A stretch of 64,000 nt of DNA from assembly GCF_037975245.1 (NCBI RefSeq), contig NC_092573.1:6424001-6488000 (forward strand), given 5' to 3'. Positions within the stretch are counted from its first letter, which is position 1; each line of letters opens with the position of its first letter. Source of the DNA: Apostichopus japonicus. Lineage: Eukaryota; Echinodermata; Holothuroidea; Aspidochirotida; Stichopodidae. Positions 7,188 to 23,843 of the stretch are shown in pieces. The position numbers and the translations under genes are program-made. The notes under the pieces are model-generated. The model was not told where the DNA came from, did no database searches, and was given only the letters and a program-made list of their open reading frames with translations.

Positions 7188-7679
7188 TTATTTTAATACA
7201 TTCTGAAGTTGTAAAAAATTATACCAAGGGTACCAATATTTCCTCCAAACACTGCTTTTCATATTGCGCAACAAAATGTGTTTTTGTAATAGAAAATAGT
7301 CCCTCAGAAACAATAGTAACTTATTCTGCAGTGGAATTTCTTTCCGTACTTTGCAGTTGAAAATGAATTTCTTAACTAAAATTATACTCAAATTCAGCTC
7401 TCTGGCAATGTCCGCACCAAACAACACTGTCTTAATGTCTAGTACTATACCAATATCTATATTGTTTAACAAAGTTTGGAGATGATTCCAAAGCCTAGCT
7501 GAGAGTGGGCAATAATAGAACAAATGTTCAATTGTCTCAACATACCTATGACAAAAAGTACAAGTGTCATGAGTAATTGCTTTTATTAAATGCAAGTACT
7601 TATTGGACGGGATAATCCTCTGAAGCAGCCTATACTGAAACCACCTCAAATTAACATCACCAGAACACTTGAATGGCAC
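7188..7679 (-). pseudogene. LINE ORF2 C-terminal zinc-binding domain (zf-RVT type)
   Basis: 163 codons, offset by a frameshift from the reverse transcriptase above it. It shows the RVT-linked zinc-binding pattern DTCTFCHRYVETIEHLFYYC (Cys-x2-Cys, then His and Cys), followed by PLSARLWNHL. This domain normally sits at the end of plant and animal LINE ORF2 proteins, and this is the natural C-terminus of the element. A stop is present near 7188, followed by about 70 bases of 3' UTR and the A-rich tail. Confidence 0.85.
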
Positions 7680-9172
7680 TGAACAATAAAAAGACCAATC
7701 TTCCTCAGTAATATCGAGGGTACCACACCATTTCGTATAGGATTTCTGTAGTAATCCTGTAGTAACTTGTTGTAAATATCTTTCGAACGGAACATACCAT
7801 TGTAAAGCATTTTGTTAAAGTAGCAATTGTTTGGAAAAGCAATATCCATATTCCCATCCAGAGCAGGTCCATTCCAAAAAGTTTTAATGGAGTTAATAAT
7901 ACCATAATATTCTACAAAATTCGTGGAAACAAGATACTTTTGGATGAAATTGTCAAAACTATGAAACCTGCCATCAACTGTGACAAAATCGCAAACAAAA
8001 CGGATACCTTTGTCATACCAGCGCTTGTAATACACTGGACTGTTACCAATTTCAATCAGCCCATTATTCCAGAGAGGCAAAGTTAATATGGTCGCATCAT
8101 CATTAATGGTAGATAGCTCATCTCGAATAAATATATATGTTATTTCGAAGAGATTTCTCCAAAAGGGATGAGCAGATCTCAAACTAGCTAATTTTATATA
8201 GAAATCCCCATTGGTAAAAAACATATCGGTGCAAATGTTATATTTACGTAAATAACAAGAGCTGAAGCTGAAATGATCACTCTTCAGAAGACGACCAAAA
8301 GTGCTTATTTTTAGTGCCTCACAGTGTTTAGAAAAATCTATCATATTCAACCCTCCATCTGCATAACTGAGCTTTAATTGTTTACGGCTTATACGGTCTG
8401 GTTTATTTTTCCATACGAAACGGAAAAATAGAGAATTTACCCTATTTCTATACTCCAAGTCAGGCAGCGGAAGTGACATGATATAATAGTTGAAACATGG
8501 TAACATGAGAGACTTAACAATTGTAATACGACCAAGCGCTGTAAGATAACGCTTTTCCCACAATTTTATCACATTTGAAACTTTATTCAATGCTTTATCG
8601 TAATTTTTTTTAACCATGCCCCCCAAATCTGTATTGAAAACAATTCCTAAAAGAGTGAAATCTTCACCTGTGTTCCAACGAATAGCATACTTCTTATCAA
8701 GTGGAATAGAAAGCCCTCTCAAACTACCCAGTCCCACTAAAAGGGACTTGTCCAAATTCAATTTAAGACCAGACAAATCTCTGAAATAGTCAAGTTGTAC
8801 CATAACCCTATTGAAAGAAGTACTGTCACCATGCATGAAAAAGGTTGTATCGTCTGCGTATTGAACAGTTTTGAAAACCTGTCCCCCAATATCAATACCA
8901 CGAATAGAATCATCACTGTTAACGAGGCTATTCAAAAGTTCAGCAGAAAGAATAAATAAATAAGGGGACAGAGGGTCACCCTGCCTACAACCACGCTCAA
9001 TGGGAAATTTTTCTGACAGAAAACCATTTACCAACACTGATGAGTAATTATCACTATAGAAAGTATCAAACCATCTAATAATAGACGGCCCAAAGTTAAA
9101 GAGATTAAGAACTTTTCTAATGAAAGTAACTGATATACTGTCAAAGGCCTTTTCAAAATCAACCCCAATCAA
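7646..9172 (-). pseudogene. LINE ORF2 reverse transcriptase, catalytic core and thumb
   Basis: A 508-codon open stretch. It starts with GVDFEKAFDSI, carrying the first catalytic Asp. It continues with GCRQGDPLSPYLFIL and QYADDTTFF, whose YADD box holds the other two catalytic Asp residues. It then has the LNLDKS and TLLGIVF blocks and a long connection domain with KLSYADGGLNM. The catalytic residues are intact, so the element died by frameshifts rather than active-site loss. The frame ends just after GLFIVQ, and the C-terminal zinc-binding part continues in another frame. Confidence 0.93.
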
Positions 9173-9862
9173 CCTGGTGTATTATCTAACTCCAGGGAAT
9201 GGATAATATCATACACTGTGCGAATACTGTCACCAATGTACCTACCACCAAGAAAGCCACTCTGGTCAGGAGAAATAATATTGGGCAATATTTTTTTCAT
9301 ACGATTAGCAATACAAGAAGATGCAATTTTATAGGGAACATTCAACAGAGATATTGGTCTCCAATTATTTAAGTAATAACGTGGTTTGCCACCTTTCGGA
9401 ATTAGGGTAATTACACCATGCTTTTGTGTCACAGAAAGATAGTTTTTATACCCAAAATTCAGTGACCGTAATAAGAAGGGACCAATATCGTCCCAAAAAC
9501 ATTTGAAAAATTCAACGGAGAAACCATCAGAACCTGGCGACTTATTATTCTTCATATTCCTCAAAACTCCTGTAATTTCCTCATATGTCAGAGGCCCTTC
9601 CAGATCACTTGATTGATCAGTAGATAATTTCACAATTTTATCTGAGAACTTCTCATGGAGATCTTCATTTCTTAAAAAAAGCATCATGACATCTATAAAG
9701 TTGGCGATAAAAATTGAGCACATCCTTTTGAATTTGATCCTGGTCGTAAATATCATGGTCATCTGCATCTTTCAAGTGACTAATAGTTCTACTGACCTTA
9801 TTTCTCTTCTCTAAATTGAGAAAAAAACTTAGAAGGCTTCTCTCCATATTCCACCCAATCAA
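9169..9862 (-). pseudogene. LINE ORF2 reverse transcriptase, N-terminal blocks, frameshifted
   Basis: Two overlapping frames (9665-9862 and 9169-9768) together encode the linker and the first RT blocks. These include LTYEEITGVLRNMKNNKSPGSDGF, written here only as landmarks LTYEE and KSPGSDG, then GVITLIPKGGKPRYYLNNWRP, landmarks LIPKGG and NNWRPISLL, and SPDQSGFLGGRYI. The frame ends at DNTPG followed by a stop. The continuation, with the catalytic FEKAFDS block, lies in a different frame a few bases on, so a one-base indel separates them. A second frame change lies near 9700. Confidence 0.88.
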
Positions 9863-9864
9863 CC

Positions 9865-10975
9865 CTAGCTCTTACCATACACCCATGAAGTCTTTTTTTC
9901 ACGTAACTTCTCCAACTCACGATTCAACTGATCGATATAATTCTTTGTGTCCTCACTCTCATTATGAAAAGGCTCAAAACGATTAATTTCCTCAATAAGA
10001 TATTTTTCTCTACTGTTTTGGACCTTCTTCTTATAGGAGGAATAAGAAATTGATGCTCCCCTAATATTCAACAGCAGCATTTCAAAGAAAAGCTGATCAT
10101 CAATAACAAACTGAATTTCCTTTCTTGGAATTGTATTTAAATTAGAGCGAATATATGGGAAGCATACATACTGATCAATCGTTGAGTCAATCACATCATT
10201 GACTTTCTTCAAGTAACCTTCATCATCAAGCAAAGAATTATTGAACTTCCAAATGCCCCTACCCATCCTAATTACATTGAAGTTAAAAGATGTAGTAATT
10301 AAAGAATGATCAGTTCTATAACCTGCTGTGATAGATGACTTCAACACCATGTTGAGTAAACCAGAAGAAATTAGGAAAAAATCTAATCGACTTTGCTTGA
10401 CTGGATTTCTTTGACGCCAAGTAAACCTTCTCTCATTAGGGTGCAAAACTCGCCACACATCAAACAATTCTAAATCACTCTGCATGTTTAATACTGCCTG
10501 TCTAGCTTTGGGATTATTAATATGAAGATAATTATAAGTATCAACTTCAGGATCAACAACGAGATTCCAGTCCCCAACAATAATAATATGAGGGGTATTA
10601 AAATCCTCAATAACCTCCTGAATGTTGTTAAAGAAAATTGGAGTATCGTTATTAGGCCCATAAAGGACCACGAGAGTGAATGTAAGTCCTGCAGTCTCAA
10701 TGATTAATGCAATATAATTACCCTCATTATCAGAATGATGTCTACAAACAGTAACATTTCCTGTTGACTTTATACAAACAGCGACCCCCCTTGAATTAGT
10801 CGTCCCAGGTGAAATATAACAATCTCCATCCCATTCTGAGAGAATACTATCAACCAAGTGTCCATCCCAATGAACGTCTTGTAAACAATAAATGTCACTT
10901 TTCACCTGTGTCAAGTAGTCAAAAACATCCTGTCTTTTATTTTTACTATTATTTGCCAGAAAGTTGATCGACTTG
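9865..10975 (-). pseudogene. LINE ORF2 endonuclease domain (AP-endonuclease fold)
   Basis: About 360 residues of an exonuclease/endonuclease/phosphatase domain, which nicks target DNA for target-primed reverse transcription. Visible motifs in order: SDIYCLQDVHWDG (the QETH-type motif with the catalytic Glu position changed to Asp), GDWNLVVDPEVD (the GDFN block), RRFTWR, SRLDFFLIS and RTDHSLI (the SDH block). The frame runs upstream past residue 1 of the open frame through NKRQDVFDYL, then hits a stop, so the first residues of the domain are lost. It ends at a stop near 9865, and the reading frame then continues in another phase. Confidence 0.88.
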
Positions 10976-13841: not shown

Positions 13842-13886
13842 GATGAGAAAAACCAAGTTATCACATTGAACGTGTGGCTGTCTTTG
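13842..13886 (+). CDS. nAChR exon 3 (loop D)
   Basis: A 45-bp exon, phase 0 at both ends, between acceptor CTTCCACAG and donor GTAAGT. It encodes DEKNQVITLNVWLSL. The Trp of NVWL is the loop D residue on the complementary face of the agonist site. Length and content equal the small exon 3 of vertebrate CHRNA7 as I remember it. It is the most 5' exon I can place; the residues before it are not in any recognisable upstream exon. Confidence 0.92.
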
Positions 13887-16066: not shown

Positions 16067-18794
16067 TCTAATTGTGAAAGGAGCACTTATATGCAATTTC
16101 AATGGTTTTCTCTGTACTCTCTCTCCCTCAATAAAAAAAAACGCTTTTGCTTTATCTATTCCAAAGTAAGCCCCAAATGGGTTACAATCTAACATTACTC
16201 TTTTCTTAGTGTGTCTGAAACGGAAACGTTGACGATACGAATGAGTGCAGCCTTGTAGGACCCTCGGGCTGCCAGGATGTGCAATTGTTCGTATTAAATT
16301 TAAAAGTTTATAATTTAATGTAGTAGTAGAGCAACTACAAGGAAGATCGAACTCCAAGGGACGCCGTTTGGTTTTATTTATATAATTGACATTAATATGT
16401 GAAGGGTGAGTGACGAAAAATGAAATGTGCTCAGAGACATATCACATCTCTTTACGAAAATGTCATTTTCTTGAGAAAAAAAAAATCTTCGATTTAAAAA
16501 AAAAAATGCCAAAAAGTCAAACTTGATAAACTCACGTGACAACCTGTAGTGGTTAGATTTGGAGCAGTTCTAAGCTTACTCCATGTGACTAAATACGTCG
16601 CTGTATAATGCTTCCTCGTTTATTACGAGTTGCCATTGTATGCGAACGATTCATATTTCTTTTCTTGTTTTTTTGTTGTCTTTGTCTTCATCTTATACAG
16701 GCTTGGTTAGATAAATCGCTAGTTTGGGAACCTGATGAGTACGGTGGACTCAGTGAAATCCACTTAAACCCAAAGAAAGTTTGGACGCCAGATATACTGC
16801 TGTATACGAGGTAAGTAGTATATATCTCAATGTATTCTCTCTGTTCTTTGGATGTATGTGTTTTGTTTTTTTAACTCATGTTAGATGTTTGCTAGATTCA
16901 TATCATAGTAATGAGATAAGTAAGTGTAAATAGAAACAGAGAGAAACAGTATTCACCCTAGTCCCGCCATTTTGTTGTGGAGTTGTTTTTGTTTTTTTAC
17001 AATCTCGACTCCACCATAGTGGGAAAGATAATGCATCTGCAAAGGTGATATTCTACACAATAGTGAATAGTCAACCATAAGTAATACAACCGGAAAAGGT
17101 TAAATTTAAGTACAATTTTTAAAGTTTTTACATGAAGACAACTAAAGCGTATTATACACTATCATATTGTGAAAAGTTAAAATTTCTGTTTGAATTAAAA
17201 AAATCTTTCTCCGTCGCGCTCCTTATTGTTGTCAAGTTCCCCCCCCCCCCCCCTCCCCCACCCCATCTTTAATTCCTTTGCGCAAGTTACAAGAAACCTG
17301 CAGATTTGCAATTTTACGTCTATTTCATCTAGCGCTGATGAACGATTTGACGCAACCTTTCACGTCAACACAATTGCCACATATGATGGTTCAGTCACGT
17401 GGTTGCCTCCGGGCCTGGTCCGAAGTACATGTGCCATAGATGTAACGTATTTCCCCTTCGACGTACAAAGGTGTTTCCTAAAGTATGGTGTCTGGACCTA
17501 CCATGGACATTTAGTTGATCTAGTGCTCTCAGACGAAGCTACAGATACAACATCATTCTTAACTAATGGAGAATGGCTCCTTCAGAGTAAGTTTGATCAT
17601 TACAATGGTCTAATATAAGAACAAATGAAGAAAAAAGAAGAAAGCGCATGTGCATTAGCAAGCGCATAGTCCAAGTCATGATCCGAACGTATGATGACTA
17701 CCATGAAGGTTGAGAATAGGTATGTGGAGGATAGAAGATGGATTTCTTTCTTTTGCATGCCTACTAACAAATCTCCGTTGTCAAACATTAACAACACAAT
17801 TTTGTTCGTGATTCGCACATTTCCCTTAAACCTTGTCAGTTTTATGTTTCTGATGTCAAATGGAGAAATGGCTTCTTGAGAGTAAATTAACTCAGTATAT
17901 AAGTTTAATATTCAAAAAGCCAACTAAAATGGAACAGCGCATGCGCCTGTGGATGCGCACCCAAGTCATATATTTCAAAAACATAAAGAATGAGTTGAAG
18001 TTTAATAATAAAAATCAATTGGAAAATTTTGTCTCCACGAATTTGTTTTAATTGTTATGTTATTAATATAGTGACAAGAATATATATAAATAATTAATAT
18101 ACTGAAAAAAGGGGAAAGTAATAAAAATTTACTCGAACTTTTAATTTGTTAATACTATTTGATAAAGTTGATCTATTAGATGTGTTATTATTTGATTTAC
18201 AGATCTCACCGCCAATAGAACGATCGAACATTACGCTTGTTGTCCAGAACCTTACCCAGATGTTAAATTTTACATATATCTCAGACGGCGTTCCATGTAC
18301 TACACAGTCAATATATTGATCCCTTGTGTCGTTCTCTCCGTGTTATCATTGCTAAGTTTTATCCTACCGGCAGAGACGGGTGAAAAACTATCTTTCTGTA
18401 AGTGTTTCCTAATTCCATCCATTACGATATAAGGGTTTAAGAAAAAGCATTAAGAATCAACTTTTAAATGATGAGCAGGTCCCTGAGCTTTGCGCAATTC
18501 GTGTTCGAAATTGCCTTTTACCTCGTGACAACGATAGGCTCAACGAAATTAACATAATCCATGTACAAAACAGATTTGATTTTCATGTGACATGATGCAA
18601 CGCTTCAGATATATAATGGTCTTTTGGCTAAGAGTTGTTATGATATCCATATAAGTGCGCGAAATCTTCCTTAGCGAATTTGTCAAGATTTAAATTATAC
18701 TTGCCCATATCGTATAGGGTAACATCAGGTTTTCGTTTAACACATTAGAGGTAAGCAACTATTAAAGATGAACATACTATTCAAAATACATGCT

Positions 18795-18849
<55 letters not shown>

Positions 18850-21800
18850 CTTCAATTTGTATTTAGATGTATTAGCAAATTACCTTTTACAACATTTTGG
18901 AAAATAAAACATGTACTTTTTTGAATGAATGAACACTTTAATGTTACACAATGCGTAAATGTAACAAGTTACTTTAGCTCAAAAGTTCGAAAAATAGAAG
19001 TGCAAATTATAAAATAATAATTTGTTATAACGAAATTCGTCTGCTAACATGGGCGAATTCACCCCCCCCCCCCTCCCCTCCCCGCTGCAGAAATAGTCCT
19101 TGTCATTATCATTATCACGGGAAGTGATGTTGACTTTAATTGTATATATCATTTATAGAAGCTTTGTGGAGGCAATATACAAGCCCAAATAACAAATTGC
19201 GAAAAATGTACACTTCCTGCTGTTTATTCGTACTGGAATTTATATCAAATGCTATCTTGGCAAGTTCAGTGCCTTGTAATGGGGGGTAACCCTGGCTGCT
19301 GTTTATTCGTACTGGAATTTATATCAAATGCTATCTTGGCAAGTTCAGTATCTTGTAATGGGGGGTAACCCTGGCTGCTGTTTATTCTTTCTGTAATTTT
19401 ATACCAATGCTATCTTGGCAAGTTCAGTGCCTTGTAATGGGGGGCAACCCTGGCTGCTGTTTATTCTTTCTGTAATTTTATACCAATGCTATCTTGGCAA
19501 GTTCAGTGCCTTGTAATGGGGGGTAACCCTGGCTGCTATTTATTCTTTCTGTAATTTTATATCAATCGTTGCAGCTTGGAGTGCCATATAATGGAGTGGG
19601 GTGGGGGTAACTCTGGCAACACGGGATGAGAGTCTGCCCGGTATTATCCTTTGCAGGCCTGACTAACTTTTACCTAGTTCAATTGACATATTTCAAGATG
19701 TGAAAGTCGTAATCGTTTGCAGGTCACAAAAGGAACACACAAAAGAAGACAGCTATAGAAGAAGATTTTCTTTTATTTTCGAAAGAAATGAAAGAAGGTG
19801 TCCTCGATTAACGTCATTAAATGTACACGTAAATTAAAATGTCAGCAAATTCATTTTTTCCCCTTCATTTTCTACATTTTTAAATATTACGAAAATAATA
19901 AAAATGGTAATAAAAATGCACCACACAGGATATCCACATTACCAACATGTCCGCAAAGAAATTTAAAAGCAAATACAACAACAAGTCATATTTCCAAATG
20001 TTTCTTCTACTGCCTCGCATTCAATATCGGATAAAAATCAATTCTGATAGTCTGTTGCGTTCGTGTTTTACCAATGGTCTGGTTTGTAATAATAAAGTCA
20101 AACAACAGGAATATGGTAATCTTCCTTCTAAGTCGCGTATTCTCTGGAAATTGAAATTTGACAGTATTTATATAACAGTTAACCTTGTATTGTTGATTGT
20201 TTTAATCATGACTTATTGCAGTCAAACGTAATCGCTGTAATCTTTTAGATTGTTTAAATAAATAGGTAAAACGAATCAAAAGTATGTCTGATTTTGCCAA
20301 CTATTCTTCTTTAACTAACGTTCCTTATTTTTAATTAGAGTACGGTATATGGTGTAATATTCAATATAGAATAAGAAGTTCTTAATTCCAAATTAAAGTG
20401 ATCTAAAATATTGACTATATAGTAAAACTATTGGAAAATTTCTCTGCAAAACAGTAATCGAGCATTGTTATTGTTCAGTTAAAAATAAATAAACAATTCT
20501 CATAGGGAGAGCCCTTGCTTATGGGTTTCAATGTTAGGAAGCATATAAGCTAGGTTCTTTAGCCTAACACATTGATCTAACAACCATTCCCATTCTACTG
20601 CAGGCATAACACTCCTCCTAGGATTGAATATATTCATGGGTCTTCTAGGTGGCAAACTTCCGACTACATCAACCTCTATTCCTTTGCTCGGTAAGGTCAT
20701 GAATATTCAAATCCTTCCTTTTCCTCTCCATCGCAGGCGTAACCATTTTGCTATCAGTGATAGTCTTCATGCTTGTCCTGGCCGAAATACTGCCCTCTAC
20801 ATCTTTGTCCATTCCTCTCCTTGGTAAGCATGCATGCATGATAATCTTTACTGAGTAGGCTATAGCAGATGATACTAACAGCCTAACACAGTGACTATAA
20901 TAAACTTATACATGTAGGCCGCCGGTAGTTTAACTCGTAAGGTTACTTTTGTAATATCGCTTAGGTTTCTTAGTATTGCAGTCGATATTTGTAACTTCCG
21001 CATATTCCGAGCAACTACTGGAACGTAATTTGTTCAACGTATTTGGATCGGATGAAAATGTTAATTACCTGAATTTTTCGTCTGGGGCTAAATGTTATCA
21101 AAAGAAATATCGTATTCTGATTAACGTTCTGGCAGGCATGGATATTGGTTTACCTTTCTAGCATATGCACCAAACAAATGACTGAAGACATGAGTTTCTA
21201 TACCTTAATATTCTGAGATATTTACAGTTTACTTTAATTTCCGATATCATTGTTTTGCATTAGTTATATAATAATCTCAGTGAAACGGTACAAAATGAAA
21301 TAAAGAAACTGTTTAGGAAACTAATGTTATTTCATATAAAATTATTTCAAGAAAAACATCTTAGTATTAGAACTATTATGTATTTGCTTTAGTCTAAGTA
21401 CACTGCAGTATTTAATATTTGTAGTTGAGTAGTAGAAAATCACTCGCACTTCTCACCTATTGAGTTTCTTTTTTATAGTTTTTGCACATTTTTGAGTAGT
21501 TCTTATTTCTTACTTCTTTTTTCTTTTTTTTGCTTGCATATCACCCTTGTCGTAGTTCTTAGAGACTAATATTCTACTAACAATTTTTGTAATAAACTAA
21601 AAACATACGATCATTCATTTTTATGTTTCATCATTATGTTATAAGAAGTTAATTGATAAACGTGAAGTTTGTACTGATATAATAAGAAATACGAAGAGTA
21701 TGCGACCTAAATATCCATTTCACATTGCATTGCCAAAGTGGTATTACTTCAAAAATTAACAGAACTTCTCAACATCAGAGCTGTGGCCATGGGATTTGGA

Positions 21801-23843
21801 ACGTTGATTTGTTTAGTGTGATATCCAAGATAGTGGATAGCACTTTACTATAATAGCCAAAATCAATGTATTAAACTGTATTTACGAGAGAGAGAGTTGG
21901 AGGGGGGGGGGGGGGGGGGTATATTTAAAGCAAATTAAGCACCTTGTGATAAACGAGGTGTGGCTATTTCTTATTCTTTTTATTTTTCAAAAATAAGGTT
22001 GGTGTTTTTAATGACAAAGAAATGAAAAATTAATGGAATATAATCGGAACGTCATATCCGGTAGGAGTTTCACATTGTAATCTAGTTTTCAACGATTAGC
22101 AATGTTTTTGGCATGGTTTTGTGGAGAGAAAAAATAGAACATACGAAAAACGAACACTTACCGATCGCAACCAGCGTAGTATACGTGCAGATATAATAAA
22201 CGATTATAGGATAAATGAATATTCATATCGGGTATTCAAATTGCTTAAAACCAATGTTATTGGTAGCTAGTACTATCTGTAGGTCTATCGTTTACATGAT
22301 ATATTTTCACTGCGATTGTGACGTAGCGGTGTTCTAAAAACAAACACCAACGTAGCGTAGTAGTTAGTTATAAAAAAAACTGTATGATATAGAAGATATG
22401 GTTAGATATAGATACCTTCAATCACTATGGACTGTCAGAATTAAATTCATAATAGGTATTCACAATTAGCTATAGTACGTATGAAACTGCTTTTTAATTA
22501 TACTCTTTTCTTTATTTTAACCTAAAAATGTAATCGAATGTCAAATATAGCAAATCTGTTACCCCGTTCCCTTCTGTATATACTTCGCTTCATTTCCTAT
22601 ACTACCACTCCTCCGTCTCAATTAAAAACTGTCTCATCCCTCCCCACCCCCACCCCCACCCCCTTCCCAACCCCGGTCGAAATATAAAGACAATCAAATA
22701 TGCCAGGAATCATATGCGATATAGCGACACTACATTTTCGTCTTGCTTCTGGATTGATTTTTAACTCGGTCTATCTGATATTTGTATGTTTCTCCTTTCC
22801 TCACAGGTAAGTATTTTACGTGCGTCCTAATCCTGGTTTCTGTGTCGGTGATTATGACCATTACGACGATTAACCTGAATAGTCGCAATCCCAATACACA
22901 CAAGATGCACAGATGGGTACGTATATACATATAGAATAAAACTATATGTCATACCAAATATGCTTTAGTGATTATCTGCTTTCATACACCAAGGTATATG
23001 CTATACCATGCATCATAACCATCGATGCTAAATGGGTTGTCTATTTTAGTGTTTTATGGGGTGAGATATTACAGACTTCTTTTTTTTTCTCGAAATGTAT
23101 TGTTTTGCCCCTCACCAACCTACAGAAGAAAGTGACAACACACGTTATCACAACGTGCTACTAAACCCCTCCCCCCTTCCCCCACACTCCCCCACCTACA
23201 CAGCCATCGAATCTGATATTAAAGTAATTACACGTTCGTAACCAATACTCACTTATTGCAATTTTGCATTTATTGATGATTTCACTATTGATGTGTAGTT
23301 ATTTGATGCCACATTTTGAAATATCCACAGGTAAGGAAGGTTCTGCTAGAGTGGTTACCTATCATTCTCTGGATGAAACAGCCCGGTAGAACATACAAAC
23401 CTTTATGTGGGACCGCCGAAAGGGACAAAATTGCCGGACAAACTCAACGAGGTATCGAACTGCTTGAGAACGCCCCGACTTACAAAGACAGAAGAGGAAA
23501 TGGATCAGCAACTCAAAGCAACTATTTCAACGATGTTAATCTCATAGGTATAAAATATGCTAACTATGCGACCGACGAACATGAACCGATGATAGCCGAT
23601 ACACGAACAGGGCCGAAGGAGAGACGAAATCGTGAACTGTGTTTGATCTTAGAGGAACTAAGAGCATTGAATGGACGCCATGAAAGACAAGACAGGGATG
23701 AACAAGTAATTTATGATTGGAAATTTGCATCGATGGTGGTAGATCGAATGTCTTTACTGATCATTTCTCTTATTACAGTAATAGTGACTTTTAAGATATT
23801 ATGGTCTGCTCCCACTTTTGTCGACGATGAACCGATTGGATGA
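13842..23843 (+). CDS. Nicotinic acetylcholine receptor alpha7-like subunit (5' exons missing)
   Basis: Ligand-gated cation channel subunit of the Cys-loop family, expected in the plasma membrane as a pentamer. Exons: 13842-13886, 16701-16810, 17333-17586, 18203-18397, then either 20604-20690 or 20737-20823, then 22807-22916 and 23331-23843. All junctions are GT-AG and every phase agrees. Features in order: loop D DEKNQV..NVWLSL; loop A WTPDILLYT; ADERFDATFH; a 13-residue Cys loop (C-AIDV..FPFDVQR-C); loop B VWTYHG; loop C YACCPEPYPDV, whose vicinal Cys pair marks an alpha subunit; M1 with ILIPC; GEK before M2; M2; M3; a cytoplasmic loop of about 125 residues; and M4 ending in SAPTFVDDEPIG and a stop. 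The aromatic-box residues are present on both faces, so a homomeric receptor is possible. Exon sizes 45, 110, 195, 87 and 110 match those I recall for human CHRNA7. The human exon 5/6 boundary has no intron here. Confidence 0.96.
14471..15811. other. Intron 3 sequence without recognised elements
   Basis: Part of the 2.8-kb intron between nAChR exons 3 and 4. It holds a GGAA microsatellite near 14775, a poly-G run at 15412-15428 and AT-rich simple sequence. No exon was found in it. Confidence 0.5.
15812..15976 (-). mobile_element. tRNA-derived SINE fragment within (TA)n
   Basis: On the minus strand the sequence reads TAGTTAGGGTGTCC (tRNA A-box side, D-arm end), ACGCGAGAGG, then CCCGGGTTCGAATCCCGG, a perfect T-arm with pol III B box. 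A short body and an (ATT)n-rich tail near 15815-15840 follow. The 5' part of the tRNA-like head is replaced by a (TA)n run, so it is truncated. It lies antisense in a nAChR intron. A genuine tRNA is ruled out because the acceptor and most of the D arm are absent. Confidence 0.75.
15977..16061. repeat. (TA)n microsatellite
   Basis: About 42 uninterrupted TA units in the intron before nAChR exon 4. A shorter TA run is at about 15769-15811, beyond the SINE. Confidence 0.98.
16062..16700. other. Intron sequence with an unidentified 97-codon minus-strand frame
   Basis: A minus-strand frame at 16064-16357 encodes RTIAHPGSPRVLQGCTHS and KRVMLDCNPFGAYFGIDKAK. Its GC content is higher than the surroundings, suggesting a fragment of a mobile or repeated element. 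I do not recognise it. Confidence 0.3.
16701..16810 (+). CDS. nAChR exon 4 (loop A)
   Basis: A 110-bp exon after acceptor CTTATACAG, ending in phase 2 at ACGAG|GTAAGT. It encodes AWLDKSLVWEPDEYGG, then ends with KKVWTPDILLYT. The WTPDILLY block is loop A, with the agonist-site Tyr. Its length equals the vertebrate exon 4. Confidence 0.95.
17333..17586 (+). CDS. nAChR fused exon 5+6 (Cys loop, loops B and E)
   Basis: A 254-bp exon from CATCTAG|CGCTGATG to CTTCAGA|GTAAGT, phase 2 in and phase 1 out. It starts with (S)ADERFDATF and ends with TNGEWLLQ. It contains the LPPGLVRSTC..FPFDVQRC Cys loop and the VWTYHG loop B Trp. In human CHRNA7 this stretch is two exons (80 and 168 bp from memory). 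Here it is one exon, two codons longer, so an intron has been lost here or gained in the vertebrate line. A C run lies upstream in the intron at about 17239-17260. Confidence 0.95.
17856..17900 (+). pseudogene. Relic duplicate of the 3' end of nAChR exon 5+6
   Basis: AAATGGAGAAATGGCTTCTT followed by GAGAGTAAATT resembles the real exon end 294 bp upstream (AATGGAGAATGGCTCCTTCA then GAGTAAGTTT). The similarity resumes in the following intron: GCGCATG..GCGCA then CCAAGTCAT occurs after both. The copy has one extra A, which shifts the frame into a TGA, and its donor is GTAAAT instead of GTAAGT. I read this as a decayed tandem duplication of about 294 bp that included the end of the exon and its splice donor. 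Confidence 0.65.
18203..18397 (+). CDS. nAChR exon 7 (loop C, M1)
   Basis: A 195-bp exon, phase 1 in and phase 1 out, between ATTTACAG and GTAAGT. It encodes loop C with the adjacent cysteines (EHYACCPEPYPDV) and both loop C tyrosines. M1 follows (TVNILIPCVVLSVLSLLSF), then LPAETGEKLSF, with Glu at M2 position -1', the intermediate charge ring of cation channels. Because this exon is constitutive, both alternative M2 exons would inherit cation selectivity from it. Confidence 0.96.
18398..20603. other. Intron upstream of the paired M2 exons
   Basis: 2.2 kb with a (TA)n run at 18797-18847, a C run near 19063-19078 and the 79-bp tandem repeat described separately. A weakly M1-like open frame around 20160 was considered and rejected as an exon. 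Confidence 0.7.
19217..19620. repeat. 79-bp tandem repeat, about five copies, intronic
   Basis: CTGCTGTTTATTC recurs at 19217, 19296, 19375 and 19454, with a CTGCTATTTATTC variant at 19533, exactly 79 bp apart. Each unit ends in GTAATGGGGGG then (T/C)AACCCTGG. The last copy is diverged. The array lies in the intron just before the duplicated M2 exons. Confidence 0.95.
20604..20690 (+). CDS. nAChR alternative M2 exon 8a (divergent pore)
   Basis: An 87-bp exon, phase 1 to phase 1, acceptor TACTGCAG and donor G|GTAAGG. It encodes (C)ITLLLGLNIFMGLLGGKL, then PTTSTSIPLLG. Relative to exon 8b it is identical at 16 of 29 residues. It carries Gly at 10', Asn at 12', Gly at 16', Gly-Gly at 19'-20' and Lys at 21', so the extracellular Glu ring at 20' is absent. 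The reading frame, splice signals and Leu 9' gate are intact despite many silent differences from 8b, which argues for long-term function. Confidence 0.88.
20737..20823 (+). CDS. nAChR alternative M2 exon 8b (canonical pore)
   Basis: An 87-bp exon, phase 1 to phase 1, acceptor CCATCGCAG and donor CTTG|GTAAGC. It encodes (C)VTILLSVIVFMLVLAEIL, then PSTSLSIPLLG. It matches the usual alpha7-type M2, with Thr 6', Leu 9', Val 13' and Glu 20'. It starts 46 bp after the end of exon 8a. That spacing is very short for a spliceable intron, so the two exons are likely mutually exclusive. Position 4' is Cys (from the split codon T|GC) where alpha7 has Gly. Confidence 0.94.
20824..22806. other. Intron downstream of the paired M2 exons
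   Basis: No third M2-like exon was seen. It contains a GA/poly-G tract at 21888-21919 and a (CCCCCA)n-like run near 22643-22664. Confidence 0.6.
22807..22916 (+). CDS. nAChR exon 9 (M3)
   Basis: A 110-bp exon, phase 1 in and phase 0 out, after CTCACAG and before GTACGT. It encodes (G)KYFTCVLILVSVSVIMTI, then NLNSRNPNTHKMHRW, covering M3 and the start of the cytoplasmic loop. The first six bases of the exon are themselves GTAAGT, so the acceptor CAG is followed directly by a consensus donor. Confidence 0.95.
23331..23843 (+). CDS. nAChR last exon (cytoplasmic loop, M4, stop)
   Basis: 513 bp from ATCCACAG|GTAAGG to the TGA at 23841-23843, 170 residues. It begins VRKVLLEWLPIILWMKQPG, equivalent to the MKRPG region of alpha7. 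A poorly conserved, charged loop follows, then LCLILEELRALNGRH, the amphipathic MA-like helix. VIYDWKFASMVVDRMS leads into M4 (LLIISLITVIVTFKILW), ending SAPTFVDDEPIG. As in exon 9, the exon begins with a donor-like GTAAGG. Confidence 0.95.
   Translation, partial: VRKVLLEWLPIILWMKQPGRTYKPLCGTAERDKIAGQTQRGIELLENAPTYKDRRGNGSATQSNYFNDVNLIGIKYANYATDEHEPMIADTRTGPKERRNRELCLILEELRALNGRHERQDRDEQVIYDWKFASMVVDRMSLLIISLITVIVTFKILWSAPTFVDDEPIG

Follow-up and report, generated by a model that had tools for sequence, protein, structure and literature searches.

The DNA analysed here (the window) is a 64-kb stretch of the Apostichopus japonicus genome, C13:6424001-6488000, from an assembly of 671,581,487 bp in 35 contigs. 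It contains a nicotinic receptor gene whose exons 3-10 could be traced on the + strand and, when joined, encode a protein of 437 residues. In the lines below, positions are those of the window and M2 residues are numbered by the usual convention, i.e. counted from GEK with E as -1'.

13842-13886, + strand: exon 3, 45 bp, DEKNQVITLNVWLSL, aligned with human alpha7
16701-16810, + strand: exon 4, 110 bp
17333-17586, + strand: exons 5 and 6 fused, 254 bp, Cys-loop and ligand-binding domain
18203-18397, + strand: exon 7, 195 bp, vicinal cysteines (YACC), M1, GEK and M2 1'-3'
20564-20581, + strand: two CTAAC motifs resembling branch points, whose adenines lie 37 and 24 nt before exon 8a
20604-20690, + strand: exon 8a, 87 bp, variant M2 with Asn12', Gly16', Gly19', Gly20' and Lys21'
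20691-20736, + strand: spacer of 46 nt from the 8a donor to the 8b acceptor, proposed steric lock
20737-20823, + strand: exon 8b, 87 bp, canonical M2 with Leu9' and Glu20'
22807-22916, + strand: exon 9, 110 bp, M3
23331-23843, + strand: exon 10, cytoplasmic loop and M4, stop codon included

The joined protein matched the Pfam ligand-binding and membrane domains (PF02931, 3.8e-51; PF02932, 1.4e-49), and both channel domains were matched whether 8a or 8b was used. Within the PDB set, the best subunit for the protein with 8b was alpha7 (377.5 bits), with beta2 next (299.2 bits). YACC and the GEK that precedes M2 are both encoded by exon 7, and the gene has both the intron between M1 and M2 and the 87-bp M2 exon. 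The exon sizes of 45, 110, 195, 87 and 110 bp match those of human CHRNA7. Judged by its domains, exon structure and nearest PDB subunit, the gene is an alpha7-type nicotinic receptor gene. CHRNA7 exons 5 and 6 are a single exon here (17333-17586), implying that an intron was either lost in this lineage or gained elsewhere. Exons 1 and 2 of an alpha7-type gene were not found within the 64-kb window; the best match to the human alpha7 exon-2 peptide (1973-2065, E 0.010) was dropped as a candidate for exon 2 because the sequence reads on at its 3' side, with no donor at the matching place. Upstream of exon 3, the - strand carries the ORFs of a LINE-type element (7188-10914), i.e. reverse transcriptase at 7646-9172 and 9169-9768 (PF00078) and endonuclease at 9865-10914 (PF03372). 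In intron 7 a 79-bp unit is repeated in tandem 4.4 times, with 93% matches (19217-19565).

In all five of the paralogues that we picked by hand elsewhere in the genome, M1 and M2 share an exon. When exon 8a was used as the query against the genome, at least 57 matches were obtained (E up to 10), and among the matches listed those other than 8a and 8b begin at query residues 1-3, i.e. at GEK, so that M1 and M2 are not split by an intron at those loci. According to a published paper, the CHRNA7/8/11 group has nine introns, of which four are specific to this group. One 305-kb stretch, C1:17848474-18153094, accounts for 25 of the 91 membrane-domain matches in the genome, and 23 of these 25 span M1 to beyond M3 in one match (profile position 104 or higher); the stretch looks like an array of genes for nicotinic-type receptors, intron-poor at least over M1-M3. 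Two further observations arose from the searches. The mitochondrial contig C35, of 16,099 bp, has AAA in the sense of Asn at conserved COX1 positions, in keeping with the echinoderm code, and carries nad1 and nad2 on the cox1 strand, the arrangement of sea urchins and sea cucumbers but not of sea stars. Besides C35, the assembly has another COX1-like stretch, split in two, at C29:15600-16107; it represents either a copy in the nuclear genome or misassembly of a mitochondrial contig. The prokaryote assemblies gave one weak match, in which 33 residues of exon 7 were matched at 45% identity by a Zixibacteria MAG contig (LJUX01000002.1), from a bacterial ligand-gated channel or a contaminant; this match is uninformative on the exon pair.

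The preliminary description of this DNA had placed two alternative M2 exons in one nicotinic receptor gene, and both the exon structure and the similarity between the exons support this. The two 87-bp exons, 20604-20690 and 20737-20823, were confirmed at these coordinates; each runs from phase 1 to phase 1, is preceded by AG and is followed by GT (donors gtaagg and gtaagc), and the gap between them is 46 bp, as had been reported. The reported identity of 16 out of 29 residues is obtained when the first junction codon is counted; the exons agree at 53 of 87 bases, at 15 of 28 complete codons and, with both junction codons, at 17 of 30 residues. Both encode M2 from 4' onward together with the M2-M3 loop. 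There are 66 open 87-bp AG..GT windows in the phase of 8b on the two strands of the 64 kb; when these were scored against 8b, 8b itself reached 124, 8a 69 and the next window 1. With the demand for splice sites removed, 8a came second of 127,832 sliding windows (69, the third scoring 29; mean -27, sd 12). Exons 8a and 8b are neighbouring homologues that match in length and phase. Scanning same-length AG..GT windows across the 64 kb revealed neither a third M2 exon nor duplicates of exons 3, 4, 5+6, 7 and 9 (exon 10 was left out), a scan that sees copies of the same length only, so that copies of other lengths would escape it.

A homologous neighbour need not be a working exon, and 8a could be a dead copy that is no longer spliced in, leaving 8b as the only M2 exon in use. 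We simulated neutral decay by starting from 8b and mutating it without selection to 34 differences in 5000 runs; the simulation contains no indels, and starting at 8b puts all of the change on the 8a branch. Stops were absent from 2481 of these runs, identity at 17 residues or more survived in 11, and in no run was the BLOSUM62 score as high as the observed 84. Neutral decay of 8a was thus ruled out, none of the 5000 runs having kept the observed amino-acid similarity, and within its assumptions the simulation shows exon 8a to be under selection. The acceptor, donor and reading frame of 8a are also intact, with the two CTAAC motifs upstream. As its similarity goes beyond neutral decay, and given these intact splice signals and motifs, 8a looks like a working exon. 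There are nevertheless points on the side of a dead copy: Asn12', Gly16', Gly19' and Gly20' of 8a each occur in none of 17 distinct paralogous M2s of the genome (25 loci, 24 of which gave an M2 by pattern, L020 having failed), the PF02932 score of the joined protein is 158.6 bits with 8a versus 169.9 with 8b, and in silkworm alpha6 the sequenced cDNAs are described as containing 8b only, though the gene holds 8c (PMC1919356). We consider it improbable that 8a is dead.

The age of the duplication can be judged only roughly. Divergence between 8a and 8b by NG86 was dS 1.03 and dN 0.39, but with pS 0.56 on about 26 synonymous sites the error of a dS close to 1 is very large, and all that follows from it is that the duplication is not recent. 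Over 28 codons there are 15 identities between 8a and 8b, 17 between 8b and human alpha7 and 14 between 8a and human alpha7, counts that do not resolve the order in which the three split. Exons of 28 residues carry little phylogenetic signal.

We then considered how the two exons might be used. Both double inclusion and double skipping of 8a and 8b leave the frame open, so nonsense-mediated decay cannot enforce exclusion, which must come from splicing itself. The minimum distance between a donor and a branch point is given as about 50 nt (PMC5740500, PMC7969005), and the entire intron between 8a and 8b is 46 nt, i.e. below this limit provided that the branch point of 8b is located within this intron. 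The 46 bp had been described as shorter than most spliceable metazoan introns, and they are short both against the published limit of about 50 nt and against the genome itself, where all 75 introns that we estimated are longer (17 in myosin and 58 in kinesin genes; the smallest about 126 bp). These sizes are gaps between neighbouring profile matches (70 myosin and 130 kinesin rows), with a profile gap or overlap of up to 13 residues allowed for myosin and an overlap of up to 30 for kinesin; 65 of 186 myosin and 122 of 202 kinesin candidates were scored, and introns read through inside one match are hidden from such a survey. In one kinesin match, C21:18086660-18086938, roughly 96 additional bases, with five stops among them, may represent a hidden intron; this match was left out of the 75. 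Folding of the RNA of the exon pair was no more stable than that of shuffled sequences (z +1.51; of 100 shuffles, 95 were equally or more stable).

The open frame also bears on the reading that 8a and 8b are cassettes without strict exclusion, giving some subunits without M2 and others with two M2 segments, since nonsense-mediated decay would not remove such transcripts. A precedent comes from silkworm alpha6, some of whose transcripts are described as carrying the two exon-3 variants one after the other and one as lacking both (PMC2045683). However, an intron of 46 nt is below both the steric limit and the intron sizes estimated in this genome, and a subunit with two M2 segments would presumably have five membrane spans. 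Loose cassettes are, in our view, slightly less likely than a dead 8a. We found no point in support of an assembly error that set two alleles or gene copies in tandem, an explanation that is scarcely credible given that agreement at 53 of 87 bases is far too low for alleles, that the 340-bp stretch spanning both exons has a single match (itself) in the 671.6-Mb assembly and that the published A. japonicus assembly is described as built from HiFi long reads.

The explanation that fits best is that 8a and 8b are probably a tandemly duplicated, mutually exclusive pair of the alpha7-type gene, either of which is spliced between exons 7 and 9. Exon 7 would be joined to 8a or to 8b and the chosen exon then to exon 9; joining of 8a to 8b would be blocked, as there would be no room for U1 at the 8a donor next to U2 at a branch point in the spacer. 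From the genomic sequence we infer that the 46-nt spacer acts as a steric lock and that both exons are used in RNA. Points that count against this explanation include exons 1 and 2, not found in the window, the RNA folding, which did not stand out from shuffled sequence, and the acceptor of 8b. This acceptor does have a tract rich in pyrimidines, but the 60 bases that precede it contain no match to yTnAy, which leaves its recognition unexplained. The acceptor of exon 3 likewise lacks yTnAy, which makes this a weak test.

The two forms would differ in the chemistry of the pore. Exon 8b retains Leu9', Val13' and Glu20', and would make a normal alpha7-like cation pore. Exon 8a retains Thr6', Leu9' and Phe14' besides carrying its five variant residues; the channel made with it, alone or mixed with other subunits, would have Gly16' and Asn12' and lack the outer ring of Glu20'. 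The residue at 16' affects calcium permeability. In alpha7, E258 (20') is described as the negatively charged ring that tops the pore, and the residues mutated in that work are tied to cation conductance (PMC10941285). Going by these residues, the 8a pore should pass less cation current, and perhaps less calcium. Residue 20' is Asp or Glu in nine of the 17 distinct paralogous M2s and non-acidic in the other eight; loss of the acid at 20' is therefore ordinary in this receptor family, and the change in charge need not be the reason why the duplication was kept. Pore charge also varies widely among the receptor genes of the genome, besides the difference between 8a and 8b.

Should both exons be used, a nicotinic receptor gene in an echinoderm would alter the chemistry of its pore by splicing, at the exon where insects do so as well, and duplication of the M2 exon would be a recurrent way to tune acetylcholine-gated channels. 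The pair would also be a natural experiment on 12', 16' and 20' in an otherwise identical receptor.

Pairs of exons kept apart by steric exclusion are represented by alpha-tropomyosin. Another example is exons 4a and 4b of OGDH, where exclusion is attributed to a donor and a branch point closer than about 50 nt (PMC5740500, PMC7969005); the OGDH branch points are distant and have been mapped, whereas the sea cucumber intron measures 46 nt in full and its branch point is putative. Vertebrate CHRNA7 resembles the sea cucumber gene in being its best PDB subunit match and in having an intron between M1 and M2, but has one M2 exon, which is called constitutive (PMC1919356). In the open-licence literature, no such exon pair appeared in the titles and abstract openings, among the matches listed, on nicotinic receptors of echinoderms, sea urchins, sea cucumbers or Strongylocentrotus.

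The nearest parallels are in insects. The preliminary description had stated that Drosophila Dalpha6 has alternative exons for the same M2 region, and papers on insect alpha6 agree, describing exons 8a, 8b and 8c as mutually exclusive and as encoding TM2 and the TM2-TM3 loop (PMC6393475, PMC8505678, PMC1919356). As in the sea cucumber, the subunit is alpha7-related and the exon for TM2 and the TM2-TM3 loop is duplicated in tandem, a duplication placed in insects before the origin of the insect orders, about 300 million years ago (PMC1919356). Both exon 8c of Tribolium alpha6 and sea cucumber 8a are variants without the TM2 glutamate; in the Tribolium exon this conserved residue is replaced, which may affect conductance (PMC2064938). 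Insects, however, usually have three copies of exon 8 and the sea cucumber two, and exon choice in insects is described as shown by RT-PCR, whereas in the sea cucumber it is predicted from genomic DNA. Exon 3 is mostly duplicated in insects as well, whereas within our window the second-best exon-3 window of the same size scores 9 against 77; Apis alpha6 is likewise described as lacking the exon-3 pair (PMC1919356). The alpha8 gene of the silkworm, Bombyx mori, is a second insect gene with a duplicated and alternatively used TM2-TM3 exon (exon 7), reported as its own recent duplicate (PMC2045683); it differs in being another subunit and in the recent date of its duplication, its copies being 86% identical, whereas 8a and 8b agree at 53 of 87 bases. 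With alpha6 and alpha8 as precedents, the pair in the sea cucumber adds another case to a known phenomenon. As the eight paralogous M2s without an acidic 20' lower the odds of repeated evolution, we suggest only tentatively, as a possibility that we would not yet favour, that the M2 exon has been duplicated at least twice in alpha7-type genes, in insects and in echinoderms, with a normal copy kept and another lacking the outer glutamate, so that splice choice would set conductance or calcium entry, a choice locked in the sea cucumber by a spacer too short to be spliced.
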